From: Sphingorhabdus sp. EL138
GTDB lineage: Bacteria; Pseudomonadota; Alphaproteobacteria; Sphingomonadales; Sphingomonadaceae
Direction of reading: 5' to 3'
Assembly: GCF_900258045.1 (NCBI RefSeq)
Contig: NZ_OGVD01000003.1
Coordinates: forward strand, 682,001 to 746,000
DNA length: 64,000 bases
Shown here: piece after piece, positions 778-52,183 of the stretch
Numbering within the stretch: the stretch's first letter is position 1
How the letters are laid out: every line of letters begins with the position of its first letter
Position numbers and translations under genes: made by a program
The notes under the pieces: model-generated
The model's database searches: none
The model's input: only the letters and a program-made list of their open reading frames with translations
What the model was told of the DNA's origin: nothing

Positions 778-793
778 TTGCATTCGAATGCAA
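778..793. promoter_or_regulatory. Palindromic operator candidate upstream of the HisD-like gene
   Basis: TTGCATTCGAATGCAA is a perfect 16-bp inverted repeat 40 bp upstream of the start at 738. Near-identical copies lie 46 bp upstream of two other minus-strand genes (starts at 5210 and 51854). The constant distance from the start codon suggests an operator near the promoter. The binding protein is unknown. Confidence 0.6.
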
Positions 794-825
794 TAATTGC
801 CGTCCACCAGGTGCTAATTTATGTC

Positions 826-2460
826 TTAAGCGAGCTTTCCGAATAGGTAGAGGAACAGCATGATCGCGACAAAAACGACAAGAAGTCCCCATAACGGACG
901 GTCAATCCGTCCCGGCACAAGATACCATCCATCCTGCTTTTCGGCTTTGCCACTTTCGCGGAAATGGCGGATCTGTCCCGGCACTGTTTGTTCATGCCAG
1001 TCTTTCTGAAAACCGTCGAGAAGCACACTCGCGATCCACGATACGATGATATTGATCCCACCACCGATAACTACATACCAGGGCCAAGCGATTTCGGGAT
1101 AAAGACCGTTAATGCCCATTAATCCGCCCAGACCGACAATTACGATCAGTCCAATGGCTCCTGCCGCAACGCCAACCAGCAAACCGCGTTCGGTCGTATG
1201 TTTGGAGAAGAAGCCCATGCCGAACATGGCGAGCTTGGCGCCGACAAAATAGGAACCGACTTTCGACAATGTTTCCAAAATCGACCCGCCGCTGGAGATG
1301 AAAGCATAAGCCATCGGGATGACCATCAGCGCCCAGATCAAAGTGAATATCCGCGACATGAGAAGATAATGCGCCTCGCTGCCATCCCCTTTGATAAACG
1401 GCTTGTAGATATCAGCAACGCTCACCGTGGATAGCGAATTGAAAGCCGAAGATAGGCTGGACATGGAAGCGGACAGGATGGCCGCTGCCAATATCCCCAT
1501 CAGCCCGGGAATGGCCAATGTATTGGCGAAGGTGAGGATGATCTCATTGGGTTGTTCAAATGGCTCCCCTTTGAAATGTACGAAGAGCAACGCACCGACG
1601 AAGAAAAAGACGAAGTAGAGAATGAAGGCAACATAGCCCATCAACAGATAGGATTTTTTCGCGTCCCCAATATTCTTCGCCGCTAGTGCCCTCTGCACCA
1701 TCATCTGGTTCGCGCCGTAGACGGTGATATGGAACAAAGTCATCGCAAACACACCCGCCCAGACCGTCGGCGCGACGGTGAAATCAAGATCGGTATTGAG
1801 CGGATCGAGTTTGCCATTCTCTGCCAGAAACGCAGTCGCGTCGGATAGGGGAGAAACTGTACCGAGGAGACAGTAGAGAATGATACCGGCACCGAGAAAC
1901 AGGATCGCGCCTTGCAATACATCGGTCCAGATCACTGCATTCATCCCGCCAAGCAAGGTATAAACCAGCACAATCGCCGTCATGATGATGATCGATATTT
2001 TGGGATCAATGCCGGTGATGAAAGTGACCACAACCGCGGTTGCGGTTAGTATCGAAGCCGTGGTGATGCTCTGGGTCATCAGGAAGATGATGCTCATAAC
2101 CGTACGAGAGGCCGGGCCAAACCGCTTCTCAAGATATTCATAGATTGAAGTGACGCCGCTGTTGAAGAAAAAGGGCAAGAACAGGACGATCACGGCAAAG
2201 ATGACCAGCGGATAATTCACATGGATTGCAAGCGCAGCCATGCCATCGCCATAAGCCCATGCCGGACCGCCAAGGAAAGAGAGCGCGCTGACATAGGTGG
2301 CGATGACCGAGATACCGATCGCCCACCATGGCGCAGAGCGGTCGCCAAAATTATAGTCCTGTGCGGTTTTTACCCGCCGGCTCATATACCAGCCGAGTAG
2401 CAGGTTAGCGATCAGATAGACCCCTACTATGCCCCAGTTCAGCAATCCAAATCCCTGCAT
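826..2460 (-). CDS. Sodium:solute symporter (SSS family)
   Basis: A 544-residue polytopic membrane protein starting MQGFGLLNWGI. The start at 2460 is chosen because AGGGGG lies just upstream; a longer in-frame reading would run into the hydrolase gene. About 13 hydrophobic segments are visible, and the conserved SSS regions are present (GGPAWAYGDGMAALAIHVNYP; YEYLEKRFGPASR; ASMSSLSSAFNSLSTV). SSS proteins couple sodium entry to uptake of sugars, amino acids or organic acids in the inner membrane. It follows the alpha/beta hydrolase gene by 13 bp and is the last gene of the run SnoaL - aldehyde dehydrogenase - hydrolase - symporter, so it probably imports that pathway's substrate. Specificity cannot be assigned. 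Confidence 0.9.
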   Translation of the reverse strand: MQGFGLLNWGIVGVYLIANLLLGWYMSRRVKTAQDYNFGDRSAPWWAIGISVIATYVSALSFLGGPAWAYGDGMAALAIHVNYPLVIFAVIVLFLPFFFNSGVTSIYEYLEKRFGPASRTVMSIIFLMTQSITTASILTATAVVVTFITGIDPKISIIIMTAIVLVYTLLGGMNAVIWTDVLQGAILFLGAGIILYCLLGTVSPLSDATAFLAENGKLDPLNTDLDFTVAPTVWAGVFAMTLFHITVYGANQMMVQRALAAKNIGDAKKSYLLMGYVAFILYFVFFFVGALLFVHFKGEPFEQPNEIILTFANTLAIPGLMGILAAAILSASMSSLSSAFNSLSTVSVADIYKPFIKGDGSEAHYLLMSRIFTLIWALMVIPMAYAFISSGGSILETLSKVGSYFVGAKLAMFGMGFFSKHTTERGLLVGVAAGAIGLIVIVGLGGLMGINGLYPEIAWPWYVVIGGGINIIVSWIASVLLDGFQKDWHEQTVPGQIRHFRESGKAEKQDGWYLVPGRIDRPLWGLLVVFVAIMLFLYLFGKLA

Positions 2461-2473
2461 AATGCCCCCTCTA

Positions 2474-3241
2474 TTAGCCTTTAACCAAGCGCAATCTGGT
2501 CGGTCCAGTGCTTGTCGATTGCGCCGTTGGAGCAATCTGTTTCAACAGAGCTAACAGAGCATTTGTTACGATTTGTGGCTGTTCCATCGTCGAAAGATGG
2601 CCGCAATTTGCAATGATCGACAGGGCCGCATCAGGAATGGCATTCGCGAGCTCGACATGAATCTCCGGTGTGCAGACTATATCATCGCGCCCGGTCATAA
2701 CGATCGTCGGACAAGAAATATTAGCCAATATGTCATGTGCCGAGCAACGGTTCATAAGCGCTATGGACTGCTGTGCGAAAACTTTTTCGCCAAGCTTCAA
2801 ACCCATGTCTGCCAATAGATTCAGTCGTTCTGACGTCCGGTTGCATTTCGCCAAATAATTTGGCTTGAGCTCTTCTTGCATGACCAGGCTAAGCTTGCCT
2901 TCTGCGACCTTGCATATCTGTGATTTCCGTTGCTCCTGAACCTTGTCTGCATAGGCGGTGGTGTTGAGCAGGGCAAGGTGCGTGACGCGATCTGGAGCCT
3001 GTCTAACAATTTCCAATGCAACAATCCCGCCCATTGAGAGTCCCACTAATGCAAATTTTTCTGGTGCATCCATGATTACATCATGGGCAATGCTCTCAAT
3101 ACTTGCCGAGCGGGTGATATCGCCATCAAGGCAAAGATAGCCGTTGCGGGACAAGCTTGCTTTTTGTGCCTGAAACAGGCGTCCATCGCACATGAAACCA
3201 GGCAGAAAGACTATCGGATGTTGCGGCACGTTGGCTGGCAC
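2474..3241 (-). CDS. Alpha/beta hydrolase
   Basis: A 255-residue alpha/beta-hydrolase-fold protein. The nucleophile elbow GLSMGG is at residues 67-72 (Ser69), an acidic residue is at 186-187 in TGRDDIV, and the catalytic His is His215 in NCGHLSTMEQP, giving a complete triad in the usual order. The GTG start follows directly after the TAG stop of the upstream aldehyde dehydrogenase gene, so translation is probably coupled; an in-frame GTG four codons later is also possible. The Ser-hydrolase class fits an esterase, lactonase or enol-lactonase-like activity; no substrate can be named. It is co-transcribed with the aldehyde dehydrogenase and symporter genes. Confidence 0.85.
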   Translation of the reverse strand: MPANVPQHPIVFLPGFMCDGRLFQAQKASLSRNGYLCLDGDITRSASIESIAHDVIMDAPEKFALVGLSMGGIVALEIVRQAPDRVTHLALLNTTAYADKVQEQRKSQICKVAEGKLSLVMQEELKPNYLAKCNRTSERLNLLADMGLKLGEKVFAQQSIALMNRCSAHDILANISCPTIVMTGRDDIVCTPEIHVELANAIPDAALSIIANCGHLSTMEQPQIVTNALLALLKQIAPTAQSTSTGPTRLRLVKG

Positions 3242-4762
3242 CTAAAAGAAGCCGAGCGGATCGATGCCGTGGCTTACCAGCACGTTCTTGGTCTGCTGAT
3301 AATGGTTCAGTGCCATTTTGTGGGTTTCACGACCGATCCCCGATTTTTTATATCCGCCAAAGGCTGCATGAGCCGGATAGGCGTGATAGCAATTGACCCA
3401 GACGCGCCCGGCCTGAATCGCACGCGACATTCGAAAGGCACGGTTGCTATCCCGCGTCCAGACGCCGGCACCAAGTCCGTAGATCGTATGATTGGCAATA
3501 CCAATAGCTTCCTCTTCGTCCTTGAAGGTCGTGATCGCCAGTGTTGGTCCGAAAATCTCCTCCTGAAAAACACGCATGTCATTGCGCCCTTTCAGAAGCG
3601 TCGGCTGAACATAATAGCCGCCCGCCAGATCGCCGCCGACATCGGCTTTTTCCCCGCCCATCAAAACCTCCGCGCCGTCCTGAGCCGCTATAGTCATATA
3701 GTTCATGATCTTTTCAAACTGCTCTTGAGACGCCTGCGCACCGACCATGGTATCGGTATCGAGCGGATTGCCCTGCTTGATATTTCTGGCACGTTCCATC
3801 ACTTTTTCCATGAAGGGCTCGTAAATGCTCTCCTGCACCAGCGCGCGGGAGGGGCAGGTGCAAACCTCACCTTGGTTGAAGAAGCCTAGCAACAAGCCTT
3901 CAGCACATTTGTCGATGTAATCTGCCTCGTGGCCCATAATGTCCTCAAAATAGACATTGGGGGATTTGCCACCGAGTTCGACCGTCGAAGGGATGAGTGA
4001 CTTTGCGGCATTTTCCAGAATCTTTTGACCGACAGCGGTTGATCCGGTGAAGGCAATTTTTGCAATCCGGTCACTAGAAGCCAGCGCTGCGCCGATCTCT
4101 GCGCCAAAGCCGTTTAATATGTTCACTACGCCAGAAGGCAGGATATCCGCAATCATTTCCATCAGGACAAGGATAGAGATCGGAGTCTGTTCGGCGGGTT
4201 TCAGGATAACGCAATTGCCCGCTGCCAATGCTGGCCCCAATTTCCAGGCAGCCATCAGCAGCGGGAAATTCCAGGGAATAATCTGACCCACGACACCAAG
4301 CGGTTCATGATAGTGATAGGCGACCGTTTCGGCATCAATATCCGCCGCCGAACCCTCTTGTGCTCGAATGCAACCGGCAAAATAGCGAAAATGATCAATC
4401 GCCAAGGGTATATCTGCATTCAGCGTTTCGCGGATGGCTTTGCCATTGTCCCAGCTGTCGACATAGGCGAGCTGCTCAAGATTATCTTCCATCCTTTGCG
4501 CGATCCTGAGCAGCATATTGGAGCGCTCTGCAACTGAGGTCTTGCCCCATTCTGGCGCTGCTGCATGCGCTACATCAAGTGCCTTTGTAAGATCGGCTTC
4601 GGAAGATCGGGCCACCTCGCAATAGACGTTGCCGTCCACCGGTGATTTATTTTCGAAATAGGTTCCATTGGCGGGTGCGACCCAATCCCCACCAATGAAA
4701 TTCTCGTACCGATTCTTGAATGTGAAAATCGCGTTTTCACTTCCGGGTTTCGCGTAAATCAT
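3242..4762 (-). CDS. NAD-dependent aldehyde dehydrogenase (ExaC/AcoD type)
   Basis: A 506-residue aldehyde dehydrogenase starting [13 protein letters not shown], with GGAGAGGATGAGG upstream of the ATG at 4762. The cofactor and active-site motifs are intact: [33 protein letters not shown] with the general-base Glu, and [11 protein letters not shown] with the nucleophilic Cys near residue 300. The N-terminal region and the CTCPSR variant resemble the ExaC/AcoD acetaldehyde or chloroacetaldehyde dehydrogenases. It oxidises an aldehyde to the acid in the cytoplasm. The gene lies 28 bp after a SnoaL-like gene and abuts the hydrolase gene, so it probably acts in the same uncharacterised pathway. 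The exact aldehyde is unknown. Confidence 0.9.
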
Positions 4763-4790
4763 ATCCTCATCCTCTCCAGCCGGTTTTGGT

Positions 4791-5210
4791 CTACATCCAG
4801 CCCAGTTCCGTGAGTGCCCAAGGTGCATTCCAGATTTTTACCGTGCCGCTGACCTTGTTTTCATCATTGATGGTGATCGCATAGACATAATGAGATGATG
4901 TCTCTTTGCCCGTTGCATCAATCGGCCCACCTTCGCCAACATGCTTGCCGGTAAAAATACCGAAGAACAGAGCCGTGCTGCTATCCTCGTCAAAACTGCT
5001 GGTTACAATTCTATAATTGCATCCTTTTAGCGGACCTTGACCGAGGCCCTGCATCCAGTCGCAATAGTCGAGCACCGTCACTATATCAGCAATCGGTTCG
5101 CTTTGTGCTTCGAAACGCGCGCCATCGGCCACATATTCCTGGCAACCGGATCGGCCTTCCAATCCTTCGCATGCATGAAAAAACTTAGTGGCGATGTCCA
5201 TTTTTGACAT
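4791..5210 (-). CDS. SnoaL/NTF2-like small protein
   Basis: A 139-residue protein starting [19 protein letters not shown]. The length, the early helix with a FHACEGL-type segment and the later beta-rich part ([21 protein letters not shown]) fit the NTF2-like/SnoaL cone fold, which includes cyclases, isomerases and dehydratases with small hydrophobic pockets. I cannot assign the reaction. It is the first gene of the minus-strand operon with aldehyde dehydrogenase, hydrolase and symporter genes. The ribosome binding site is weak; the Met four residues later is an alternative start. A near-palindrome related to that upstream of the HisD-like gene lies 46 bp before the start. Confidence 0.75.
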
Positions 5211-5255
5211 GATTTGTTCCCAAAATGACTTTTTCTTTTCCCCTTGTGAAGTTTT

Positions 5256-5271
5256 TTGCATTCGAAGTCAA
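5256..5271. promoter_or_regulatory. Operator candidate in the SnoaL-like divergent intergenic region
   Basis: TTGCATTCGAAGTCAA matches the perfect palindrome at 778-793 in 14 of 16 positions. It is 46 bp upstream of the minus-strand SnoaL-like gene and also lies upstream of the plus-strand tandem SnoaL-like gene, so it could control both. Confidence 0.5.
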
Positions 5272-5392
5272 TTTGAGTTATTGGCGCTTTTTGAGCAAGG
5301 AATGACGACAAACCAATATCAGGGTATTGGCATCTCATGGCAATTGGGTCTGGAAGCATGTCGACATTCAAAATCACCGGGAATCCATCATC

Positions 5393-6445
5393 ATGACACC
5401 AAAAGATCTGAAATCGTTTCTGGAAAATTTTCGCAAAGCCGCCGAGAATTTTGATCCTACGGTGATGCGCCCGATCATGAACAATCTGTTCGCAAGCGAT
5501 GCGACCCTGCATTTATGCCATCCGTTTGGTACAGTTCGGGGAGCTGACGCGTTGCTTGATGACTGCCTGATTCCGCTGCATCAGGCGATGCCCGATCTCG
5601 AACGACGCGATATGATCCTGCTGGCTGGAACGACACCGGAGGGGCAAGAGTGGGTAGGTGCCATGGGGCAATATATGGGGACTTTTCTGGCTCCCTTCCT
5701 CGACATTCCGCCCACTGGCGGCCTTGCCCATATGCGCTACCACGAATTTTTCCGCATCGAAGACGGTGAGATCGTCGAGATGCAAGCTATCTGGGACATT
5801 CCAGAATTGATGATGCAGGCAGGTGCCTGGCCAATGGCTCCGCAACTTGGTGCATATTTGTGCACCCCCGCCCCAATGAGTGGAGATGGCCTTCATCTAT
5901 CAGGCGATGGGCAAGCGACGATGGATCATGTCATCGCGATGCTCGAGGATTTGTGCCGCTATCCAGCAGATCCGGATCCCAAGGTCATGAACTTGGAAAA
6001 ATACTGGCATCCACGATTTAATTGGTACGGCCCCGCCGGTACCGGGACTGCGCGCGGTATTTCCGGATTTCGCAATTGGCACCAGATACCTTTTTTACGC
6101 GCCATGCCTGACCGAAAGCTCGACGCCATGGGCGATTTATTGTCGCACTGGGTAGCCGAGGGAAATTATGTCTGCGAAACCGGCTGGCCCAATATGCGCC
6201 TGACTTTGTCCGATGACGGCTGGATGGGAATCGCTCCAGCTGGCAAGGAGGTTCTTCTACGCAGTCTCGATTTCTGGAGAATGGAGGACGGCCTTATCCG
6301 CGAGAATTGGGTGCTGGTCGATCTACTCGACCTCTATTCACAGATCGGCGTCGATGTGCTGGCGCGTATGGGTGAATTTAACAAGGCCAGGAACTTGGGT
6401 GCGATTACCCTTCCAGACGGCCTTTCGAAACTTCTTAGGCGTTAG
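5393..6445 (+). CDS. Tandem SnoaL-like protein (two NTF2-like domains)
   Basis: A 350-residue protein when started at MTPKDLKSF; an ATG 22 codons earlier (5327) is also possible, and neither has a strong ribosome binding site. Two similar halves are visible. The first, roughly residues 5-150, ends in MRYHEFFRIEDGEIVEMQ; the second, roughly 175-330, contains KYWHPRFNWYGPAGTG, ISGFRNWH and LDFWRMEDGLIRENWV. Both patterns are typical of SnoaL-like polyketide-cyclase-family domains. The duplication makes an internal pseudo-dimer, where single-domain relatives usually form dimers. It is divergent from the small SnoaL-like gene and probably belongs to the same unknown catabolic system. Its last 108 bp overlap the 3' end of the opposite AraC-type gene. 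Confidence 0.8.
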   Translation: MTPKDLKSFLENFRKAAENFDPTVMRPIMNNLFASDATLHLCHPFGTVRGADALLDDCLIPLHQAMPDLERRDMILLAGTTPEGQEWVGAMGQYMGTFLAPFLDIPPTGGLAHMRYHEFFRIEDGEIVEMQAIWDIPELMMQAGAWPMAPQLGAYLCTPAPMSGDGLHLSGDGQATMDHVIAMLEDLCRYPADPDPKVMNLEKYWHPRFNWYGPAGTGTARGISGFRNWHQIPFLRAMPDRKLDAMGDLLSHWVAEGNYVCETGWPNMRLTLSDDGWMGIAPAGKEVLLRSLDFWRMEDGLIRENWVLVDLLDLYSQIGVDVLARMGEFNKARNLGAITLPDGLSKLLRR

Positions 6446-7120
6446 ATTTGTCGCCTGTCTGAACTGGCGCGTGAAAGAGCTTTGATCGCTATATCCAGCT
6501 TCGAGGGCAATTTCGGCGATTGGAAGGTCAGTTTCACGGAGCAGCCTTTGCGCTCGATCTACGCGCTGCTTGATGATCCATTGTCCCACATTCAGTCCGT
6601 AGATTTGCTGAAAACGCCGGTTCAATTTGAACTGCGACATGCCGGTTCTCTCTACCATCTGTATGACCGAAGGGGGGGTGGGAAAGTTGGTCAGCACCCA
6701 GTCAATTACACCTGCCACATCGTCATATTCACTGCGCGATACATTGGGAGATTGTAGATCTTTCGAAATACCGACGACGCCGATGATGTTGCGTTGATCG
6801 TCGAAAGTCGGTTGCTTTGTGGTCAAGCACCAGCCAACCATCCGGTTCGGATAGACGTGCATTTCCAGCCGTTGCTCGATGGGTTGGCCTGTTCGCACAA
6901 CCGATCGGTCCTGCTTCTCGTAGCTGCTGCCCAACTGCTTTCCGAGTATTTCAGACGGGAGGCGGCCGATCAGCTGCGCTTTGTCCGTGCAACCGGACCG
7001 TCCGACAAGCGTTGTGTTCACAGCTTTATACCGACCTTCGATATCCTTCTTGAAGAAAACGACGTCGGGCAAATGGTCGAACAGGTTAGCAACCATAGTT
7101 AGAGGGAGCGTTTCTCGCAT
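6338..7120 (-). CDS. PAS-AraC family transcriptional regulator (candidate hydroxyproline regulator)
   Basis: About 260 residues. Residues 10-130 form a PAS-like sensor domain (LFDHLPDVVFFKKDIEGRY at its start, GVVGISKDL at its end). Residues 150-235 form an AraC double helix-turn-helix with typical DRAQRLLRETDLPIAEIA and GYSDQSSFTRQFR segments. The ATG at 7120 is preferred; an upstream TTG at 7147 is possible, and neither has a clear ribosome binding site. It is divergent from the hydroxyproline genes with only about 150 bp between them. AraC-type regulators (LhpR) control such clusters in Pseudomonas, so the role is likely by context. The C-terminal tail of about 30 residues beyond the helix-turn-helix overlaps the end of the convergent SnoaL-like gene. 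Confidence 0.85.
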   Translation of the reverse strand: MRETLPLTMVANLFDHLPDVVFFKKDIEGRYKAVNTTLVGRSGCTDKAQLIGRLPSEILGKQLGSSYEKQDRSVVRTGQPIEQRLEMHVYPNRMVGWCLTTKQPTFDDQRNIIGVVGISKDLQSPNVSRSEYDDVAGVIDWVLTNFPTPPSVIQMVERTGMSQFKLNRRFQQIYGLNVGQWIIKQRVDRAQRLLRETDLPIAEIALEAGYSDQSSFTRQFRQATNLTPKKFRKAVWKGNRTQVPGLVKFTHTRQHIDADL

Positions 7121-7269
7121 GAGATATTCTATATCAAAATATACCAAAATTCAAGTTTGCAATCGATCAAATGACAAGACCCCTGCAACCGATGCGCTTA
7201 GAGAAGTTCCATCACCCCGTGCCATCGCTTGTCAGTTTTGGCGCATGATTTTGCAAGTTCAGAGAGAGC

Positions 7270-8214
7270 ATGATGCAAACAGACACCATTTTTTCCGGCT
7301 GTATGCCAGCCCTGATGACACCCTGCGACGCTAACGGAACGATCGATTTTGACGCACTGGTGCGCAAAGGCACTGAGCTCATCGAAGCAAGTATGGATGC
7401 CGTCATCTATTGCGGTTCAATGGGCGATTGGCCGCTACTAAGTGACGAACAGCGCATGGAAGGCGTTGCACGCCTATGCTCGGCTGGCGTCCCGGTGATT
7501 GTCGGAACCGGCGCACAAAATTCTTCCCGTGCGGTTGCTCTGGCGCGCCACGCACAAGAGGTCGGCGCGGCTGGATTGATGGTTATACCTCGGGTGCTTT
7601 CCCGCGGAATATCACCCGCCGCGCAGCGGACGCATTTTGCCGATATTCTGAACGCAGCACCCGATCTTCCCGCAGTGATCTATAACAGCCCCTATTATGG
7701 TTTTGAGACCAAGGCAGACTTGTTCTTTTCTCTGCGTAGCGAGTACAAGAATCTCGTTGGTTTCAAGGAATTCGGTGGCGCAGAATCGATGCGTTACGCC
7801 GCCGAGAATATTACTTCGGCAGATCCCGGCGTTGCGCTGATGGTTGGCGTCGATACGCAGGCTTTTCATGGCTTTGTAAATTGTGGGGCGGATGGCGCAA
7901 TTACCGGAATCGGTAATGCTTTGCCACGTGAGGTGCTGCGCCTGATAGAACTGTGCGAGCAGGCCGCAGCCGGTGACGCCGAAGCCCGTGTACTGGCGTG
8001 GGAATTGGACAAGGCCATGCATGTCCTCGCGACTTTTGATGAAAGCCCCGACCTCGTTCTCTATTACAAGCATTTGATGGTGTTGGAGGGGTCTCCCGAA
8101 TATGCGCATCATATTCACTCGTCGGACCGATTGAGTCCGGCGCAGCTGGCCTATCTGGAAGCGCAGTGGAAACTGTTTCGTACATGGTGGGATAACTGGC
8201 CCGGCGCTGTTTAG
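7270..8214 (+). CDS. lhpC: Dihydrodipicolinate synthase-family deaminase (probable 1-pyrroline-4-hydroxy-2-carboxylate deaminase)
   Basis: A 314-residue class I lyase of the DapA family. The Schiff-base lysine is Lys166 in VGFKEFGG and the proton-relay tyrosine is Tyr138 in VIYNSPYYG. The N-terminal PALMTPCDANGTIDF strand and the YCGSMGDWPLLS substrate loop are typical of the branch that deaminates pyrroline-4-hydroxy-2-carboxylate to 2-oxoglutarate semialdehyde. The flanking genes encode the epimerase, D-hydroxyproline oxidoreductase and semialdehyde dehydrogenase of the same pathway, which makes this specificity more likely than lysine biosynthesis. It is the first gene of the operon, with a purine-rich AGAGAGAG ribosome binding region before tandem ATGs. 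Confidence 0.85.
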   Translation: MMQTDTIFSGCMPALMTPCDANGTIDFDALVRKGTELIEASMDAVIYCGSMGDWPLLSDEQRMEGVARLCSAGVPVIVGTGAQNSSRAVALARHAQEVGAAGLMVIPRVLSRGISPAAQRTHFADILNAAPDLPAVIYNSPYYGFETKADLFFSLRSEYKNLVGFKEFGGAESMRYAAENITSADPGVALMVGVDTQAFHGFVNCGADGAITGIGNALPREVLRLIELCEQAAAGDAEARVLAWELDKAMHVLATFDESPDLVLYYKHLMVLEGSPEYAHHIHSSDRLSPAQLAYLEAQWKLFRTWWDNWPGAV

Positions 8215-8229
8215 CCGGAGGTTGCGTGG

Positions 8230-9159
8230 ATGCGTGTTATCGATTCACATACTGAGGGGCAGCCGACCCGAGTCATCGTAGATGGCGGACCTGATCTGGG
8301 GTCTGGCTCTTTGGCAGAGCGCCGCGAATTGCTTGCGCGAGACCATGATGATCTGCGTCAAAAGACTATCCTTGAACCCAAATGTTCGAACGCTATGGTT
8401 GGCGCTCTTTTATGCCAATCTCCCAATCCGTATTGTGCTGCTGGAGTGATCTTCTTCAACAATACCGGATATTTGGGAATGTGCGGTCATGGTACAATCG
8501 GGTTGGCGGTCACGTTAGCTTATTTGGGGAAGCTGAGCCTAGGATCGCACCTGATTGATACGCCAAGCGGAGTAGTTCGGGTGGATTTGAACGGGCCGAA
8601 CGATGCAACGGTCGAAAACGTCCCAAGTTACTGTTTTCGCAAAAGCGTGGAACTGACGGTTGACGGGCTTGGCAAGGTCAGCGGTTCAATTGCCTGGGGC
8701 GGGAACTGGTTCTTTCTGGCCGATAGCACACCTTGCATTCTGTCGCGTGAAAACATCCCGCAGCTCACCGATGCAGCGAGCAAGATTAAACGCGCGCTTG
8801 TCGAGCAGTCTATCTTTGGCGCGGACGGCGGAGAGATCGATCACGTTGAGTTTTTCGGTCCGGGACAAAGTTCGGACGTCAACAGTCGGAATTTCGTTTT
8901 GTGCCCGGGCCTTGCCTATGACCGTTCGCCTTGCGGCACCGGTACCAGCGCAAAAATTGCTTGCCTTGCCGAGAACGGCCAACTCGCGCCCGGTGAGGAT
9001 TGGATCCAAGAAAGCATCATGGGAAGCCGTTTTCGTGGCTCCTATCGGCCCGATGAGGAAGGGCGTGTGATTCCGTCGATTGCTGGAACGTCCTATGTGT
9101 TCGCAGATGCCAAGCTGGTCCATCAGTCTGACGATCCCTTCGCGAGAGGTTTTGGCTGA
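8230..9159 (+). CDS. lhpA: 4-hydroxyproline 2-epimerase
   Basis: A 309-residue proline-racemase-superfamily enzyme that interconverts trans-4-hydroxy-L-proline and cis-4-hydroxy-D-proline without cofactor. Both catalytic cysteines are present: Cys85 in GMCGHGTIG and Cys235 in DRSPCGTGTS. That supports epimerase activity and argues against the trans-3-hydroxyproline dehydratase branch, in which one Cys is Thr. The opening MRVIDSHTEGQPTRVI is typical of the family. The gene starts 16 bp after lhpC with a strong GGAGG, and ends 3 bp before the oxidoreductase gene, so the three are co-transcribed. Confidence 0.92.
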   Translation: MRVIDSHTEGQPTRVIVDGGPDLGSGSLAERRELLARDHDDLRQKTILEPKCSNAMVGALLCQSPNPYCAAGVIFFNNTGYLGMCGHGTIGLAVTLAYLGKLSLGSHLIDTPSGVVRVDLNGPNDATVENVPSYCFRKSVELTVDGLGKVSGSIAWGGNWFFLADSTPCILSRENIPQLTDAASKIKRALVEQSIFGADGGEIDHVEFFGPGQSSDVNSRNFVLCPGLAYDRSPCGTGTSAKIACLAENGQLAPGEDWIQESIMGSRFRGSYRPDEEGRVIPSIAGTSYVFADAKLVHQSDDPFARGFG

Positions 9160-9161
9160 AG

Positions 9162-10418
9162 ATGGATCGCAATTCAGAATCGGTTGTTATCATCGGCGGC
9201 GGCGTGATTGGGATTGCTTGTGCGCATTATCTCAACCAAGCGGGTTATTCCGTCACCGTTCTGGAAAGCGGTAGCCTCGCGGCGGCTTGTTCCTATGGTA
9301 ATTGCGGCTATATCTGCCCCAGCCATGTTCTGCCGCTCGCAACGCCGGATGCGCTTCGCGAGGGCCTGATGTCGCTGTTCGATCCGTCCGCGGCATTCCG
9401 GATTAAGCCGCGCCTTGAGGCGTCCTTCATTCATTGGCTCTGGCAATTCGCAAAGCGCTGCACGAAGCGCCAGATGTTGGAAACCGCCGAGCACCTGAAT
9501 GCCATTTCGGAGTCTTCGGCGGCGGAGTATCGCCGCCTGTTGGCAAATGAGATCATCGGAACTGAATACCGTCAGTCCGGTCTTTTCTATGTCTTCCAAA
9601 CAACCAAAGCTGCTGAGGCGTTCTCTGCGACCGCGCGGACGGCGGCGGCTCAGCTCGGCGTTCAATCGAGTTGGATTGATGGTTCTGACCTCGGGGACTT
9701 CGATAGCACACTCAAACCCGGCATGGCCGGAGGGGTGCTATTCCCTGACGATGCCAGCTTGCGTCCTGACCGGCTGACCGAGCAATGGGTCTCTATGCTT
9801 AAAGGCAGGGCTGTGGCATTTCGTGAAGGCGTACGCTTCTTGGGTGCGAAACGATCAGGGCGGCTGATTACCGCGATTGAAACCTCTGAAGGTCTGATGG
9901 AGGCCGATCACTTTGTCTTGGCTGCGGGCGCTATCAGTGGACGCATGGCCAGCCACTTTGGCGCGGCTTTACCCGTCGAACCGGGCAAGGGTTATTCGAT
10001 TACTTTGGATCGGCCAGCACAGTCGCCGCGTGTTCCCATGCTGTTTCCTGAACATCATGTGGGTATCACGCCATTCGACAGCGGTTTCCGCATTGGGTCG
10101 ATGATGGAGTTCACTGGCTTTGATAGGTCGATTTCACGCCGCCGCCTAGATCAGCTGCGCGCTTCGGCATCACATTATCTAGCTGATGATCTACCCAAAT
10201 CCAACGTAGAGCAATGGTACGGCTGGCGTCCGATGACATGGGACAGCTTGCCCATTATCGGCGCAATGCCGGGTACGGACAATGTCTGCCTCGCCACTGG
10301 GCACAACATGCTGGGTCTGACGCTTGCCCCAGCGACGGGGAAGCTGGTCGCTGAGTGTATCCAAGGCCAAACGCCACATATCGACCCCAGTCCATATTCC
10401 GCCGCACGTTTCGGTTGA
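9162..10418 (+). CDS. FAD-dependent D-amino-acid oxidoreductase (D-hydroxyproline dehydrogenase)
   Basis: A 418-residue DadA/DAO-family flavoprotein. The dinucleotide-binding motif IIGGGVIGIACAHYL is at residues 10-24, followed by LESGSLAAACSYGNCG and, near the C terminus, YGWRPMTWDSLPIIG and ATGHNMLGLTLAPATG, which close the FAD site. Next to a hydroxyproline epimerase the expected substrate is cis-4-hydroxy-D-proline, oxidised to 1-pyrroline-4-hydroxy-2-carboxylate with electrons passed to the respiratory chain or to oxygen. It is the single-subunit type; no LhpE/F-like partner subunits are seen. It starts 2 bp after the lhpA stop. Confidence 0.88.
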   Translation: MDRNSESVVIIGGGVIGIACAHYLNQAGYSVTVLESGSLAAACSYGNCGYICPSHVLPLATPDALREGLMSLFDPSAAFRIKPRLEASFIHWLWQFAKRCTKRQMLETAEHLNAISESSAAEYRRLLANEIIGTEYRQSGLFYVFQTTKAAEAFSATARTAAAQLGVQSSWIDGSDLGDFDSTLKPGMAGGVLFPDDASLRPDRLTEQWVSMLKGRAVAFREGVRFLGAKRSGRLITAIETSEGLMEADHFVLAAGAISGRMASHFGAALPVEPGKGYSITLDRPAQSPRVPMLFPEHHVGITPFDSGFRIGSMMEFTGFDRSISRRRLDQLRASASHYLADDLPKSNVEQWYGWRPMTWDSLPIIGAMPGTDNVCLATGHNMLGLTLAPATGKLVAECIQGQTPHIDPSPYSAARFG

Positions 10419-10456
10419 AGCGATCAACTAAAGTCAATCAAGAGAAGAGAGTTCAC

Positions 10457-11893
10457 ATGTCAGTTCACAAGAATTTCATTGCCGGTGAGTGGATCGGTTC
10501 CAGCTACCAAGTTGCCAATATTAATCCATCAGATACGAACGACATTGTCGGAGAATATGCCCAGGCAAGCCGCGGTCAGGTAAATCAAGCTGTCGACGCT
10601 GCCTATACCGCTTCCGCCGGTTGGGCGCGGAGCGGAATCCAGCAGCGCTGCGAGTGTCTCGACGCTATTGGCACCGAGATCCTCGCCCGCAAGCAGGAAT
10701 TGGGTACCTTGCTGTCGCGTGAAGAAGGCAAGACATTGGTTGAGGGGATAGGAGAGGCCACGCGTGCAGGACAGATATTCAAATTTTTCGCCGGTGAAGC
10801 GCTAAGGAATGTAGGTGAACTGCTCCCATCGGTGCGGCCGGGTCTGGGTGTGGAAATCTCCCGCGAGGCTGTTGGCCCGATAGCGATCATCACGCCGTGG
10901 AATTTTCCGATTGCCATTCCCGCATGGAAAATCGCGCCAGCACTGGCTTTTGGTAACACAGTGGTTTTCAAACCTGCAGAACTCACCCCAGGTAGCGCGT
11001 GGGCCTTGACCGACATAATTGCCCGTTCCGGTATACCAGAAGGCGTATTCAATTTGGTGATGGGCCCCGGTGCCGAAATCGGCGCGCCAATGCTCAACGA
11101 CCGCCGCATCCGCGCCGTCAGCTTCACCGGATCGACCAGGACTGGACGTATTGTGGCCGGAGCCTGTAGCGCACGCAATGCGCGCTATCAGCTTGAGATG
11201 GGCGGTAAGAACCCTCTCGTTGTTCTAAACGACTGCGGTCTCGACAATGCGGTCAATTGCGCGGTGAACGGGGCCTTCTTTTCAACCGGTCAGCGCTGCA
11301 CCGCGTCTTCAAGGCTGATTGTTGAGGAATCGATCCATGACGCATTCGTTGCGGCGCTCGTCCAGAAAATGGAAGGCTTGGTGATTGGCGACGCTTTGGC
11401 TGAAGGGACAGATATCGGCCCGGTCGCGGATCAAACTCAGTTGAACAAGAATCTCAAGTATGTACAGATTGGCAAGGAAGAAGGCGCAGAGCTACTGACC
11501 GGCGGCGAAGTGGTAGAGCGGGAGAAGCCTGGTTTCTATCAGAAGCCTGCGCTGTTCATCGATACAGACAATTCCATGCGTATCAATAAGGAAGAGATTT
11601 TTGGGCCGGTCGCCTCGGTGATCAAGGTCTCGGACCTTGATGAGGCGATGCATAACGCTAATGATACCCAGTTCGGACTGTCGGCCGGCATTTGCACATC
11701 GTCATTGCGCTCGGCCGCGCGTTTCAAACAAGAAAGCCAGGCGGGCATGGTCATGGTCAATGCGCCGACGGCCGGTGTTGATTACCACGTACCGTTCGGC
11801 GGAACAAAAGGGTCCAGCTTCGGGCCGCGCGAGCAAGGCGGTTACGCACGCGATTTCTACACGACCGTAAAAACAGCATACACCCAAACATGA
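10457..11893 (+). CDS. lhpG: 2,5-dioxopentanoate (2-oxoglutarate semialdehyde) dehydrogenase
   Basis: A 478-residue aldehyde dehydrogenase starting MSVHKNFIAGEWIGSS; a longer in-frame reading would overlap the upstream gene. ITPWNFPIAIPAWK carries Asn149, LEMGGKNPL carries the general-base Glu247, and FSTGQRCTASSR carries the nucleophile Cys281. By position as fourth gene of the hydroxyproline operon it should oxidise 2-oxoglutarate semialdehyde to 2-oxoglutarate with NAD(P), feeding the TCA cycle. A GAAGAGAG purine run lies before the ATG. A strong hairpin follows about 85 bp downstream. Confidence 0.88.
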   Translation: MSVHKNFIAGEWIGSSYQVANINPSDTNDIVGEYAQASRGQVNQAVDAAYTASAGWARSGIQQRCECLDAIGTEILARKQELGTLLSREEGKTLVEGIGEATRAGQIFKFFAGEALRNVGELLPSVRPGLGVEISREAVGPIAIITPWNFPIAIPAWKIAPALAFGNTVVFKPAELTPGSAWALTDIIARSGIPEGVFNLVMGPGAEIGAPMLNDRRIRAVSFTGSTRTGRIVAGACSARNARYQLEMGGKNPLVVLNDCGLDNAVNCAVNGAFFSTGQRCTASSRLIVEESIHDAFVAALVQKMEGLVIGDALAEGTDIGPVADQTQLNKNLKYVQIGKEEGAELLTGGEVVEREKPGFYQKPALFIDTDNSMRINKEEIFGPVASVIKVSDLDEAMHNANDTQFGLSAGICTSSLRSAARFKQESQAGMVMVNAPTAGVDYHVPFGGTKGSSFGPREQGGYARDFYTTVKTAYTQT

Positions 11894-12005: not shown

Positions 12006-12013
12006 AGCATCGG

Positions 12014-12379: not shown

Positions 12380-12386
12380 TCGCTTC

Positions 12387-41813: not shown

Positions 41814-41838
41814 GGCGTTTAAGACGAGGAGAACAATC

Positions 41839-42837: not shown

Positions 42838-43022
42838 AAGGATCCGATTACCAATTGTTGGAACTGCCGACCTTGGGTGAGAAAGATAATAATATGCAGT
42901 CTTACAATTTTTTTGCGTAGTAACTGGCTTATACTCTGTTAATGACATCTCGGATGGCGACTGAGCTTAGTCCACTACTGGACCAAACTTGGTTTCAAAT
43001 CTTATCTTACAAGGAACAACTC

Positions 43023-44060: not shown

Positions 44061-44078
44061 TCTTAGCTCACGGATGAT

Positions 44079-46720: not shown

Positions 46721-46753
46721 CGATGGTGTGGAACTGATATCAGCGGCAAATGG

Positions 46754-48250
46754 TCACTTCTGTGATTTCATTGCGCCGGTCATCTCAAGAAACAGATCGC
46801 CGACTGCCGGATTTTGTTTCCGTCCCATCAGACTGACAATCACCGAGGCAAGCATTCCCAGAATGAACCCGGGGACAATTTCGTAAATCCAGTCGGACAG
46901 GGAGCCACCAGCAATGGTCAAAGGCGCGTATAGCCAGAACAATACGGTGCCCGCGCCGATCACCATTCCGGCAAGTGCGCCATCGCGCGTTAGCCCAATC
47001 CAGTATAAACTCAATAATATGATCGGGCCAAACGCTGCTCCAAATCCGGCCCAGGCATTACTGACCAGAGAAAGCACGTTGCTGTCACGGTCAAAGGCCA
47101 ACCCGATCGCCACAAGAGAAACAGCCAGAACCGAAAGCCGACCGATAAGTACCAATTCTTTTTGGGATGCGGACTTACGGATGAATATCTTGTAGAAATC
47201 CTCGGTCAACGAGCTGGAGGAGACCAGCAATTGTGAAGAGATGGTGCTCATGATTGCCGCCAGGATAGCAGCCAAAAGAAAGCCGGAGATAAGCGGGTGG
47301 AAAAGAACCTGGGAGAGCAGAATGAAAATTGTTTCCGGATCATCAAGAGTCAGACCTTCAGACGTGACGTAGGCCAACCCGAAAAGGCCGACAAGGACCG
47401 CGCCGATGACGGTAACAACCATCCAGGTCATGCCTATCCATCTGGCCACGGCAATGTCTTTGAGGGATCGGATCGCCATGAAGCGAACAATGATGTGAGG
47501 CTGCCCGAAATATCCTAAGCCCCAAGCCAGACTTGATATGATACCCAATATTGTAGCACCCTCGAACCAGGTCAAAGCGTCTGTGTTGACGGAATTTATC
47601 GCTACCTCAGTCGGACCCCAGCCCCCCAATACCTGCAGGGTGACAACCGGTACTATGACCAGTGCCAAAAACATGATGCAACCTTGCACAAAATCGGTCA
47701 GGCTGACGGCAAGAAACCCGCCGAAAAGCGTGTAGGCGATGACCACGCCAGCGGTAATGAAAAGCCCCAGCTCGTAATCAAGTTCAAATGAGGCCTCGAA
47801 CAGCTTGCCGCCAGCGACAATCCCGGCCGATGTATAGAGCGTGAAAAATATGATTATGACCAAGGAGGAAATGATACGCAGCGCACGGGACTTGTCCTGA
47901 AATCGTTTCTCAAAATAGTCCGGTATGGTGATCGCGTCATCAGCCATTTCGGTAAATACCCGCAACCGTGGTGCGACCAGCAGGTAGTTTAGATATGCCC
48001 CGATGATCAGGCCGACGGCGATCCATGCGGCACTGAGCCCGGACAGATAGATAGCCCCGGGCAGGCCCATCAACATCCAGCCGCTCATATCCGATGCACC
48101 CGCCGAAAGTGCACCGACGGCTGGATGCAAATTGCGCCCTCCAAGCATATATTCAGAAACGTTGCTGGTCGACTTGCGCCAGGCATAAAGCCCGATAGCC
48201 ATCATCAGGACGAAATAGGCTGCGAGCGAAATCATCTCTCCGAAATTCAT
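46754..48250 (-). CDS. putP: Sodium/proline symporter
   Basis: A 498-residue SSS-family transporter starting MNFGEMISLAAYFVLMM; this start has GGGG at proper spacing, while a Met two codons earlier does not. PutP hallmarks are visible: MLGGRNLHPAVGALSAGASDMSGWMLMGLPGAIYLSG, with the substrate- and sodium-binding region, and STISSQLLVSSSSLTEDFYK. It imports proline with sodium for the PutA encoded 124 bp upstream on the same strand. It is only distantly like the SSS protein at 826-2460. Confidence 0.95.
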   Translation of the reverse strand: MNFGEMISLAAYFVLMMAIGLYAWRKSTSNVSEYMLGGRNLHPAVGALSAGASDMSGWMLMGLPGAIYLSGLSAAWIAVGLIIGAYLNYLLVAPRLRVFTEMADDAITIPDYFEKRFQDKSRALRIISSLVIIIFFTLYTSAGIVAGGKLFEASFELDYELGLFITAGVVIAYTLFGGFLAVSLTDFVQGCIMFLALVIVPVVTLQVLGGWGPTEVAINSVNTDALTWFEGATILGIISSLAWGLGYFGQPHIIVRFMAIRSLKDIAVARWIGMTWMVVTVIGAVLVGLFGLAYVTSEGLTLDDPETIFILLSQVLFHPLISGFLLAAILAAIMSTISSQLLVSSSSLTEDFYKIFIRKSASQKELVLIGRLSVLAVSLVAIGLAFDRDSNVLSLVSNAWAGFGAAFGPIILLSLYWIGLTRDGALAGMVIGAGTVLFWLYAPLTIAGGSLSDWIYEIVPGFILGMLASVIVSLMGRKQNPAVGDLFLEMTGAMKSQK

Positions 48251-48374
48251 CTGCATCCCCGCCTGTTCTGTGACCCCAGAAATCCACTACGCGTTTGCCC
48301 GTCTCTATGCACGAAATATCTGCCAGATATCTGAAGGGGTTCCAGCGCAATAACTATCGATCGAAGAAGACTGG

Positions 48375-51300
48375 CTACGCAAGCAGCGACACATTCCCGC
48401 CTGCGGCCGTTGTATCAATACAGACGTGCCGCTCAACGAGACAACGACTGGCAAAATCTTGTTCGGTGATGAGCGGAATCAAGGGACCGTCACGATGGGC
48501 CAGTGCCTTGCGGATATCCCGAATATCTTCTGCTTCACTCCAGCATACGACTGCATCTACTCCGGATAGCTGGGTAAGATGTTCGCGGCTCAAAAATCCG
48601 TCCAGCGCATTTTCTCCTGTCGCTTCGGGGGCAACAATCAACGCTTCACACCCTTGTTCGCGCGCCGTTTTTGCCTGCGCTTGCGCATCCGCTGATGACG
48701 GACCCATGCACAATATCGTTCCGCGGGCATAGGTGAACAATTCGTTGGATTCCCCGGTGGGTCCGGGCATCACTCCATGGTCACGCGGTCGGGGATCGAC
48801 AGATGGCAGATTGTTGATGGCCGCCTGAACAGTTTCCAGCGCCAGAGCTTTTCCTGTAACGATCGAGTTTCTCGCGCTGTTGCTTCTGAAAAAGCGCGGC
48901 AAATAATGTGGTCCTCCGGCCTTTGGCCCTGTGCCTGACAGGCCTTCTCCACCAAATGGCTGGGAACCGACGACAGCGCCCACCTGATTGCGGTTAACAT
49001 AGATATTGCCAACTTTCATCGCTGAACTCAGTTTGTCGATTCGCCGTTCGATCCGGGTCTGAAGGCCGAAGGTCAATCCGTAACCGCGATTATTGATATC
49101 GCTGACAACGTTTTCCAGGTCCTCGTTTTCAAATGTCGCGACATGCAAAACCGGGCCAAATATCTCTTCGTCAAGATCATCGACGCCATTTATCCTGATC
49201 ACTGCCGGACCCACAAAATAGCCATCTTCAGGACAGCCCAATTGCTTCACCAGTCTGCCTTCCTCTTTTGCGCGCTTTACATGAGCTGTGATTTTCTTGC
49301 GAGCCGCCTCGTCAATTACGGGCCCGATATCCGTGGACAGCCACCACGGATTTTCCAGTTCCAGTGCATCCATTGCACCGTTCAGCATTTTCAGAAACGG
49401 CGTGGCGATATCCTTGTGCAGATATAAAACCCGCAAGGCCGAGCACCGTTGCCCGGCTGACTGAAATGCTGATGTGATGATGTCGCGTACCGATTGTTCC
49501 GGTAACGCCGTGGAATCCACAATCATGCAATTGAGGCCGCCGGTCTCTGCGATCAAAAGGGCATCAGCTTCCCCATTTTTAGAGAGATTCCGGTTGATGG
49601 TCTGCGCCGTTGCGGTTGAGCCGGTAAAGCATACGCCCTGAATGCGTTTGTCACCGCTAATGGCCGCACCCACTGTCGCCCCCGCACCCGGTAGCAATTG
49701 CAGGGACGCAAGAGGCACCCCTGCTTCGTGCAGCAGATTGGTAGCCAGAGCAGCAATCAAAGGCGTTTGATCTGCCGGTTTTGCTAGTACAGCGTTGCCA
49801 GCCGCCAGCGCCGCAGCAATCTGTCCCGTGAAAATGGCCAGCGGGAAGTTCCAGGGAGAAATGCAACTGATAATTCCGCGCGGTTCTTTTTCCGGCACCT
49901 GTTCGGCCTCCTTGGCATAGTAGCGCAGAAAATCGACCGCTTCGCGCAACTCGGCAATCGTATCAAACTGGGTTTTGCCAGCCTCTCTTGCCAGCAATGC
50001 GAAAATCTCTCCATGATGCTGTTCAAAAAGATCAGCTGCCCTTCGCAAGACGGCAGCGCGTTCACTGACCGGTGCATCCCAGATATGCGCATCTTCTATA
50101 GCGTTGGTGGCTTGCGACACATCCGCTTCAATTACTTCTCCCACCTCGTTTTCGCGCAAGGCGGGATTGAATATCTTGCGTGTTGTATCGCCGGTGACAG
50201 GTCGGACGGTGATCGGCGCGGCTCGCCAGAGTTTTTCGGCAAATGGAGCGCGCTCAGACACATATTCGTTCATGTCCATACGATTGGCCAGATCCCAACC
50301 GCGGGAATTGACACGACCTGGTTGATATAAGTCCGAAGGTTTGACGATCTTTGACAGATTTTGTTGCTGATCAGTTGCCAGAGTCTCGAAAGGATCGGTG
50401 GCAATCATTTCAGCGGGAACGGCGTGATTGGCCAGTTGATTGACAAAGGACGAGTTTGCACCGTTTTCCAGCAAGCGCCGAACCAGATAAGCTAGCAATT
50501 CGCGGTGCTTTCCTACCGGAGCATAAATCCGTGACCGGACCTTTTCGTTACGCAGCAATGCAGCATGTAATGTTTCACCCATGCCATGCAGCCTTTGAAA
50601 TTCGTAGTCTTTGCTATTGCCGGCCATCTCAAGAATGGCCGCGACGCTGTGTGCGTTATGCGTGGCAAACTGCGGGTAAATACGATCGGTCATTTTTAAA
50701 AGCTGCGCCGCGCAGCAGATATAGCTGATATCCGTTGCTGACTTGGTGGTGAATACAGGAAAATCGGGCACGCCGTCCATTTGTGCGCGCTTAATCTCGC
50801 TGTCCCAATAGGCGCCTTTAACCAACCGGACCATGATCTTCCTGTCGAGCTGCGTCGCAAGTGTGTAAAGCCAATCAAGGACAAAGCTGGCCCGCTTGCC
50901 AAACGCCTGCACCACAACGCCAAAGCCATCCCACCCGGCGAGACGTGGATCGCTTAGCACCATTTCAATCATATCTATGGACAGGCCAAGCCGGTAAGCC
51001 TCTTCGGCATCAATATTTAAACCAACATTGGCGTCGCGTGCTGTGCGCGCGAGCTCGCCTACCCGCTCCGCAAGAGCGGGAACTGCTTTTGCCTGCTGAC
51101 TCATCTCGTAGCGAGGGTAAAGGGCGGATAACTTGATCGAAAGGCCGGGGTTTTGACGCAGATCGTCGGAATGCGAGACGCGAGCTATTTCTTCTATCGC
51201 GTCAGAATAGGCCTTGAAATAACGATCCGCATCATCTTGTGTGATCGCAGCCTCACCGAGCATATCGTAGGAATAGGTTGCTCCCTTGGCCTTCCATTTT

Positions 51301-51854
51301 TCAGCCCGCTTCAATGCCAGTGTCATGTCTTCGCCGAGTACAAATTGATTGCCGAGCTCTTTCATGGCCTGGCGGACGGCAACCCGGATCACGGGCTCGC
51401 CCAACCGCTTAATTGCGCCTCTTAGAGCCTCGAGCGGTCCTCGGCTTTCCGGTTCCTGTATTACACTACGTGTCATCGTGAGTGCGTAAGTTGATGCATT
51501 GACCAGCGCGCTGTCTGACTGACCGATATGGTCTCGCCAGTTGGAGGGACCGATCTTGTCCTCAATCAGGTCATCAATCGTCTCGTTATCTGGAACACGC
51601 AACAGGGCTTCCGCTAATGTCATAAGCGCGAGACCTTCATCTGAGGAAAGGCCATATTCGCCCAGAAAGCTCTCAGTCAGTGTCGGTCCTGATGCGCGTC
51701 TGACCTCCTGAACGACTTGTATAGCCCGTTCCCGAATTCGGATGCGCGTGTTTTCATCAGGACCGAATGTTGATGTGAGATATTCCAGAATTTCCGCTTC
51801 GTCAGCGCGATGATGGGCACGAATTTTTTCACGGTGATCAAGCAGAATATTCAT
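48375..51854 (-). CDS. putA: Bifunctional proline dehydrogenase / L-glutamate gamma-semialdehyde dehydrogenase
   Basis: A 1159-residue PutA. After an N-terminal helical arm (1-200) comes the FAD-dependent proline dehydrogenase barrel (about 215-480), with SIKLSALYPRYE, NVGLNIDAEEAYRL, MVRLVKGAYWDSEIK and the terminal RRLLENGANSSFVNQ. The aldehyde dehydrogenase half (about 560-1010) has SPWNFPLAIFTGQ, CFTGSTATAQ, LIAETGGLN and Cys804 in SAGQRCSALR. The last 130 residues are a degenerate C-terminal domain. No ribbon-helix-helix DNA-binding domain is present, so it is not an autorepressor. It oxidises proline to glutamate. An operator-like palindrome lies 46 bp upstream. Confidence 0.97.
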   Translation of the reverse strand: MNILLDHREKIRAHHRADEAEILEYLTSTFGPDENTRIRIRERAIQVVQEVRRASGPTLTESFLGEYGLSSDEGLALMTLAEALLRVPDNETIDDLIEDKIGPSNWRDHIGQSDSALVNASTYALTMTRSVIQEPESRGPLEALRGAIKRLGEPVIRVAVRQAMKELGNQFVLGEDMTLALKRAEKWKAKGATYSYDMLGEAAITQDDADRYFKAYSDAIEEIARVSHSDDLRQNPGLSIKLSALYPRYEMSQQAKAVPALAERVGELARTARDANVGLNIDAEEAYRLGLSIDMIEMVLSDPRLAGWDGFGVVVQAFGKRASFVLDWLYTLATQLDRKIMVRLVKGAYWDSEIKRAQMDGVPDFPVFTTKSATDISYICCAAQLLKMTDRIYPQFATHNAHSVAAILEMAGNSKDYEFQRLHGMGETLHAALLRNEKVRSRIYAPVGKHRELLAYLVRRLLENGANSSFVNQLANHAVPAEMIATDPFETLATDQQQNLSKIVKPSDLYQPGRVNSRGWDLANRMDMNEYVSERAPFAEKLWRAAPITVRPVTGDTTRKIFNPALRENEVGEVIEADVSQATNAIEDAHIWDAPVSERAAVLRRAADLFEQHHGEIFALLAREAGKTQFDTIAELREAVDFLRYYAKEAEQVPEKEPRGIISCISPWNFPLAIFTGQIAAALAAGNAVLAKPADQTPLIAALATNLLHEAGVPLASLQLLPGAGATVGAAISGDKRIQGVCFTGSTATAQTINRNLSKNGEADALLIAETGGLNCMIVDSTALPEQSVRDIITSAFQSAGQRCSALRVLYLHKDIATPFLKMLNGAMDALELENPWWLSTDIGPVIDEAARKKITAHVKRAKEEGRLVKQLGCPEDGYFVGPAVIRINGVDDLDEEIFGPVLHVATFENEDLENVVSDINNRGYGLTFGLQTRIERRIDKLSSAMKVGNIYVNRNQVGAVVGSQPFGGEGLSGTGPKAGGPHYLPRFFRSNSARNSIVTGKALALETVQAAINNLPSVDPRPRDHGVMPGPTGESNELFTYARGTILCMGPSSADAQAQAKTAREQGCEALIVAPEATGENALDGFLSREHLTQLSGVDAVVCWSEAEDIRDIRKALAHRDGPLIPLITEQDFASRCLVERHVCIDTTAAGGNVSLLA

Positions 51855-52183
51855 GGTTTATCAGTGTCCTCGGAAACTAATGGATGAACTCTCGGGGCTG
51901 TGCATTCGAATGTAGAAATGGTGAAGGTTTTTGCCTGATATTCTGATTCGATAATATCGCTTTGCCTTCAATTTTCCGGGGTATCGCAATTTGGGCTTTG
52001 AACACAAGCTTTGTGAAATTGTGCTGTCGATTTGGAGTGAGGCGAGCGTTGCATAAACCGTAAACCGTCCCTTGTGTGATACCCTAGCGGCGCTAATACT
52101 CTACCATTGCGACCGCCCAGCGATTTTGGTTCCGGAAAGCAGATATTTGCGAAATCTCACTATTATGTTCCCCAAGTCATTTA
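51855..52183. other. Divergent region between putA and the tandem HxlR-type gene
   Basis: 329 bp, AT-richer than the flanking genes. It carries the putA operator candidate and must hold both promoters. I see no gene, and otherwise only a short tandem TAAACCG repeat near 52060. Confidence 0.5.
51900..51915. promoter_or_regulatory. Palindromic operator candidate upstream of putA
   Basis: GTGCATTCGAATGTAG contains the same CATTCGAATG core as the element at 778-793, 46 bp upstream of the putA start, the same distance as before the SnoaL-like gene at 5210. It may be bound by a proline-responsive or general amino-acid regulator. Confidence 0.55.

Follow-up and report, generated by a model that had tools for sequence, protein, structure and literature searches.

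We analyzed a 64,000-nucleotide stretch of the Sphingorhabdus sp. EL138 genome (3.66 Mb), contig NZ_OGVD01000003.1, positions 682,001 to 746,000 (G000:C2:682001-746000 in our numbering; hereafter the window). It contains similar palindromes upstream of three minus-strand genes, namely a gene for a HisD-like dehydrogenase, the first gene of an operon (named SnoaL_C here), and putA of proline catabolism. The first two palindromes, at 778 and 5256, are very probably operators of a LacI-family repressor encoded to the left of the window, which would repress a catabolic island until an inducer is present; putA is excluded from this regulon. The scoring matrix was derived exclusively from 35 foreign sites, and the locus of a 99% sister (L074, genome G318) was excluded from the foreign-site counts. 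The sequences concerned are as follows.

778..793: candidate operator, the perfect 16-bp palindrome TTGCATTCGAATGCAA, upstream of the hisD-like gene (start at 738) with 39 intervening bp; the symporter stop (826) is on its other side
5256..5271: candidate operator TTGCATTCGAAGTCAA, upstream of the SnoaL_C start with 45 intervening bp
51900..51915: look-alike GTGCATTCGAATGTAG upstream of putA, which we do not count among the operators of the LacI regulon
4358..4373: look-alike within the coding sequence of aldehyde dehydrogenase, with a score of 7.6; considered a chance match
G000:C2:670653-671708 (L016 6653-7708), minus strand: LacI-family gene, 10.3 kb left of the window

The island spans 17.8 kb, around lacI plus the first 6.4 kb of the window. 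Seven sites scoring 17.2-27.9 were found in it, including those at 778 and 5256, and every one is upstream of genes. Two are between lacI and the TonB gene, two between the SnoaL_A and cupin genes, and one each precedes the metE-like, hisD-like, and SnoaL_C genes. Six of them are 37-77 bp from the start, and the site before lacI is 86 bp away. Markov samples of the island contained a mean of 0.03 sites with a score of at least 17 and a maximum of 1 (300 samples). With the DNA to the left of the window taken into account, the 778 and 5256 sites thus exceed chance. In the rest of the window (57.6 kb), the putA site alone reaches a score of 12, and six sites were found in the 99% sister. As further sites in the same genome, C2:442181 and C4:267952 were rejected because they are inside longer open frames, and C2:775923 (score 19.7) was rejected because it has no central CG and is located at the 3' end of neighbour genes. 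Promoter scans around 778 and 5256 detected no promoter at either site. The 5256 site may have a second target, the divergent SnoaL_D gene.

The LacI protein has an N-terminal helix-turn-helix (HTH) domain (PF00356, 49.9 bits) and a C-terminal periplasmic-binding-type domain (PF13377, 90.8 bits). A LacI dimer would read TTGCATTC/GAATGCAA around the central CpG, one half often being TTGACTTC. Binding, repression rather than activation, and the inducer are inferred: the bound protein would probably repress the island genes and operons and be released by an inducer, for which a sugar-like substrate or its breakdown product is the likeliest candidate. Such a mechanism is of an ordinary kind, and good comparative evidence makes the predicted local LacI regulon well supported.

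The sites, their positions, and their co-occurrence with the LacI gene were computed across genomes. LacI matches occur in 10 of the 298 sampled family genomes (E ≤1e-60) and in 2 of the 32 genus genomes (E ≤1e-40), the own genome being counted in both. Apart from the sister, the relatives named by a scan of genome contigs are metagenome-assembled genomes (MAGs) of Kordiimonadaceae and Sphingomonadales (both 69%), Marinicaulis, Parvularcula, and an unplaced proteobacterium (61%), a Steroidobacteraceae genome (59%), and two Phenylobacterium genomes (52-53%). Where LacI is 59-69% identical, the motif is present in 6/6 loci (114 kb with 26 sites of at most 2 mismatches, including 11 exact ones). 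Where it is 48-56% identical, 9 of the 11 genomes have the motif (22 sites with at most 2 mismatches in 298 kb). The loci of other LacI proteins (69 loci, 1,177 kb) have no site with at most 2 mismatches and 13 sites with 3 mismatches.

The foreign sites are placed as operators would be. Among the 48 with at most 2 mismatches, 44 are within 250 bp upstream of an island-gene start and none is inside a matched island gene; the matched genes, the only ones called, make up 58% and 33% of the two locus sets. Sites precede the hisD-like genes (at least 69%) in L072, L073, L075, L076, L056, L058, L063, and L066, and the exact 16-mer TTGCATTCGAATGCAA of the 778 site recurs before hisD-like in the first four of these loci. 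In several relatives, lacI comes directly after the hisD-like gene, and the operator of the latter would therefore act on lacI as well. An exact copy of the 5256 operator stands before the SnoaL_C and aldehyde dehydrogenase pair of a Parvularcula MAG (L224:2685). The degenerate 16-mer TTGMMTKCGMAKKCAA has 21 sites with zero mismatches, in 7 of 11 LacI-bearing genomes: 19 are in the island stretches that were read, and the other two are also at island genes, one before SnoaL_C and aldehyde dehydrogenase (G328) and one between the symporter and SnoaL_D (G324). With at most 1 mismatch, the 11 genomes contain 71 sites; the reversed pattern, used as a control, gives 10 (counts per strand). The central CG is present in 35/35 foreign matrix sites, which were selected by likeness to the 16-mer. 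The LacI orthologues share the HTH stretch GVSQSAVSRCF/Y with few changes, and it is not found in five control LacI proteins. The stretch alone does not fix specificity, because paralogues of 38-41% identity share much of it. Further paralogues were observed: a second LacI-like stretch (40-41% to P0001) lies in the islands of L061 (5747-6730, G253) and L071 (405-1199, G072), and G038 has three further LacI paralogues (38-40%) elsewhere in its genome.

Several observations weigh against the proposed regulon. The site before lacI is the least of the island sites (17.2) and falls to 13.0 in the 99% sister. Single sites carry less weight than the cluster, since a top score of 21.8 was reached in 60 Markov samples of 82 kb. 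Two of the genomes with LacI of 48-56% identity (G038 and G072) have 3-mismatch sites only, and the control LacI loci are mostly of other phyla. An exact site at L077:7748 has no assigned target; the open frame around it (690 aa) has no match in Pfam. Many of the 1-mismatch matches to TTGMMTKCGMAKKCAA are off the island, and such matches occur in most of the 11 genomes; the two inspected (G331:C1:28836 and G281:C10:43344) are within open frames, and the sister carries GTGCATTCGCAGTCAA (score 18.1) elsewhere, within an open frame (G318:C2:256906). The loci are partly non-independent (L078/L079 and L075/L076 are near relatives). The consensus is partly circular, placement and controls excepted, because the matrix sites were chosen by likeness to the palindrome reported in the sequence-only reading. 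Finally, G315, a member of the genus that has no LacI gene, contains 10 matches with at most 2 mismatches, 7 of which are copies of one repeat. This 16-mer, TGGCATTCGAAGCCAA, occurs seven times over seven contigs, four times within 30 bases of a contig start, and appears to be some other repeat.

The first alternative concerns putA. According to the sequence-only reading, one regulator acting through a shared core at a fixed promoter distance joins proline catabolism to the left-end block. The sequences and positions that it reported are correct: the sites are 40, 46, and 46 bp from the minus-strand starts of hisD-like (738), SnoaL_C (5210), and putA (51854), respectively. The 10-mer core CATTCGAATG has exactly two copies in the window, against 0.17 expected, and two copies arose in 2 of 100 shuffles; these copies belong to the palindromes at 778 and 51900. 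At 5256, CATTCGAAGT stands in its place, so that the common core holds for two of the three palindromes. At up to 3 mismatches, the 16-mer has four matches in the window (0.65 expected; the count was equalled in 1 of 100 shuffles), the fourth being the one at 4358.

A link to putA gains some credit from the exact core, from the 46-bp offset that it shares with the 5256 site, and from its intergenic site, which is identical in four close genomes, but we regard it as very unlikely. The putA site has lost outer bases of the 16-mer (3 mismatches), and its score of 13.2 is below 14.3, the mean of the top scores in Markov sequence of equal size, where 1.05 sites of at least 13 are expected per 82 kb. 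Its distribution does not follow LacI either. Matches to putA occur in 19 of the 32 genus genomes, 18 with upstream DNA (L168 has none; L170 duplicates L150, the putA of the sister; L169, a second match in G306 at 45%, has no site). The site, CTACATTCGAATGCAC, is upstream of putA in 4 of these 18 loci (G000, G318, G320, and G321), whose PutA N-termini are approximately 100% identical. Two of the four genomes (G000 and G318) have the LacI gene, whereas G320 and G321 keep the site without that gene and without the sites of the island; the only 2-mismatch match in either genome, TTGCAGGCGAAGTCAA, is located elsewhere. In the other 14 loci, the best match has at least 4 mismatches, and several retain a shorter ATTCGAA in roughly that position. 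The look-alike may thus derive from a putA promoter element.

Among distant LacI-bearing genomes with a putA match, 0/13 have the site (at most 3 mismatches in the 300 bp examined). Identity is only 43-47% for eleven of these matches, which may represent another PutA type, and 72% (G281) and 52% (G325) for the others. At some of these loci, the match begins at residue 3-52, and the 300 bp were counted from there rather than from the start codon. No putA match (E 1e-20) was obtained in three of the 17 LacI-bearing genomes searched. The spacing does not help, because sites precede the hisD-like genes of relatives at 11-96 bp; thus, contrary to what had been supposed, the distance from site to start is not fixed, and the equal 46-bp offset at 5256 and 51900 is a coincidence. 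With a chance-level score, retention without a LacI gene, and absence from distant LacI-bearing genomes, putA was rejected as a member, and we place it outside the predicted LacI regulon. Of the earlier proposal, a single regulator probably does read the operators of the left-end block, and conservation upstream of orthologues holds for the hisD-like gene and the SnoaL/aldehyde dehydrogenase operon; it fails for putA, and the link to proline catabolism is unsupported.

The putA region has other features. Between putA and a divergent gene, at about 51982-52019, there is a minus-strand block around TTTCACAAAGCTTGTGTTCAAAGCCCAAATTGCGATA, some version of which was seen by eye upstream of putA in approximately 15 of the 18 aligned genus loci. 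It may be a real putA control element. The divergent gene (52184-53173, plus strand) encodes a regulator with two HxlR stretches, and this HxlR-type gene is a candidate putA regulator.

Another explanation is that the palindrome is a cis-element, either a promoter or the site of another regulator, inherited with the island genes and untied to LacI. The position of 44 of the 48 foreign sites upstream of island genes would suit it. A genome of the same genus, G278, bears on this point. Its hisD-like (70%), metE-like (69%), SnoaL_B, cupin, SDR, symporter, and TonB genes are together, and such a LacI gene was not found. In the 35 kb of its island, no site scores above 5.6, compared with at least 17 for the sites of our island. 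An island without LacI is therefore also without the motif, which indicates that the motif follows the repressor. This is one genome, and on its evidence we consider simple inheritance improbable in the extreme. Reading of the palindrome by the AraC/PAS regulator (6338-7147), which has in its favor that it is encoded nearest to the 5256 site inside the window, has hardly any likelihood, and this regulator was rejected as the binder because its relatives (E ≤1e-15) are missing from 25 stretches around LacI orthologues, most of them with the motif, while its gene is divergent from a hydroxyproline-type set and a central-CG palindrome fits LacI.

Under the LacI regulon proposed here, the composition of the island can be considered. 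To the left of the window (L016) are lacI, a divergent TonB receptor gene, SnoaL_A, a run of cupin, SDR, SnoaL_B, amidohydrolase, and RraA genes, a MetE-like gene, and hisD-like. The part inside the window is as follows.

1..738, minus strand, running off the left end (full gene G000:C2:681455-682738): HisD-like dehydrogenase (PF00815)
826..2463, minus strand: sodium:solute symporter (PF00474), the last gene of the run SnoaL_C, aldehyde dehydrogenase, hydrolase, symporter
2474..3241, minus strand: alpha/beta hydrolase (PF00561)
3242..4765, minus strand: ExaC-like aldehyde dehydrogenase (NF050026, 915.3 bits, cut-off 900)
4791..5210, minus strand: SnoaL_C, 139 aa, name given here, kept in the islands of L073, L075, and L224
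5393..6445, plus strand: SnoaL_D, a SnoaL-domain protein (PF07366), divergent from the operon of the 5256 site

SnoaL_C has no family match in Pfam or NCBIfam. Its model, predicted with high confidence (mean predicted local distance difference test score, pLDDT, of 91.5), has mixed helices and strands, and their order is presumably NTF2-like. Against solved structures, SnoaL_B and SnoaL_D gave weak matches (best E 5.3e-05 and 4.6e-05), and the profile of SnoaL_C gave an E value of 0.015. The weakness of these matches means that no substrate follows from them. The amidohydrolase is distantly similar to L-fuconolactonase (111.8 bits versus a cut-off of 400), and some relatives add an aldolase of the HpcH/HpaI type (L073). 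A second hisD in the genome, at G000:C1:232538, scores better than the island copy (521.9 versus 467.1 bits), and the island protein is evidently a paralogue.

A fair guess is that the substrate is a sugar-acid-like or sulfated compound, which would undergo oxidation of a primary alcohol and aldolase cleavage. The neighbours of the G278 island weigh against this guess, since we take them to be genes for aromatic-ring breakdown and O-demethylation, with a GntR-type regulator (L235 and L236). Sulfatase genes were observed within the LacI islands of two relatives (L073:17511-19745 and L077:12729-16145). With about even confidence, we suggest that the LacI gene and its operator are markers of a widespread, undescribed catabolic pathway, which would comprise a third branch of HisD-type four-electron alcohol dehydrogenases (acting on neither histidinol nor a sulfonate), several SnoaL/NTF2-like proteins, a dicupin, a lactonase-like amidohydrolase, an HpcH/HpaI-like or RraA-like aldolase, and a MetE-like protein. 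It perhaps serves a sulfated or sugar-acid-like compound taken up through the TonB receptor and the sodium symporter.

Next to the island, at 7270-11893 on the plus strand, are genes for a lyase similar to dihydrodipicolinate synthase, a 4-hydroxyproline epimerase (445.8 bits, cut-off 450), a protein similar to D-amino-acid dehydrogenase, and one similar to α-ketoglutarate semialdehyde dehydrogenase. Together with the divergent AraC/PAS regulator gene (6338-7147, minus strand), this set looks like one for the breakdown of trans-4-hydroxyproline.

These results provide a candidate regulator, an operator, and a target list for an island that recurs in distant Alphaproteobacteria and in a Steroidobacteraceae MAG, and the supposed connection with proline catabolism is dismissed as false. 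Searching for the operator would locate the gene set in further genomes, and inducer screening with the repressor may give access to the substrate. In the literature searched, we found neither the operator sequence nor the island gene content, and no assignment of the island substrate. The 16-mers and the 14-mer were not found there, the 10-mer appeared only in papers unrelated by title, and SnoaL combined with histidinol dehydrogenase plus LacI or gene cluster gave no paper related by title.

The proposed system resembles the local regulons of LacI-family regulators described in PMC4052901. Their operators are even palindromes of 16-22 bp, mostly with a central CG and mostly 140-30 bp before starts, and 72% of the regulators show autoregulation (PMC4052901). 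Here, a protein with an HTH and a periplasmic-binding-type domain is encoded near its predicted targets, the palindrome is 16 bp with a central CG, and the sites are mostly 30-140 bp before starts. According to the same study, the regulators with assigned effectors respond mostly to carbohydrates. In contrast, the targets here are SnoaL, cupin, HisD-like, and MetE-like genes, with no recognised sugar pathway. The string "Sphingomon" does not occur in the main text of PMC4052901, and our regulator may be among the sugar groups that lack an assignment there.

The closest solved relative of the HisD-like protein is HpsN, the 3-dehydrogenase of 2,3-dihydroxypropane-1-sulfonate (DHPS; PDB 8v35), with 406 bits compared with 278 for the best HisD. 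Like HpsN, it keeps the catalytic Glu-His pair and Asp. According to PMC11382572, the HpsN motif is G-R-Y-A/S-H, whose His binds the sulfonate. Unlike HpsN, our protein has GKYPL, and K/R-Y-P-L/M without the His is found in 13/13 full island copies of at least 69%. Catabolism of DHPS, suggested by the relationship with HpsN, was therefore rejected, as the sulfonate-binding His is missing. With HisD of histidine synthesis, the protein shares the family and the catalytic residues, and it exceeds the TIGR00069 cut-off; it differs from that enzyme in being encoded in a catabolic island under the LacI motif.

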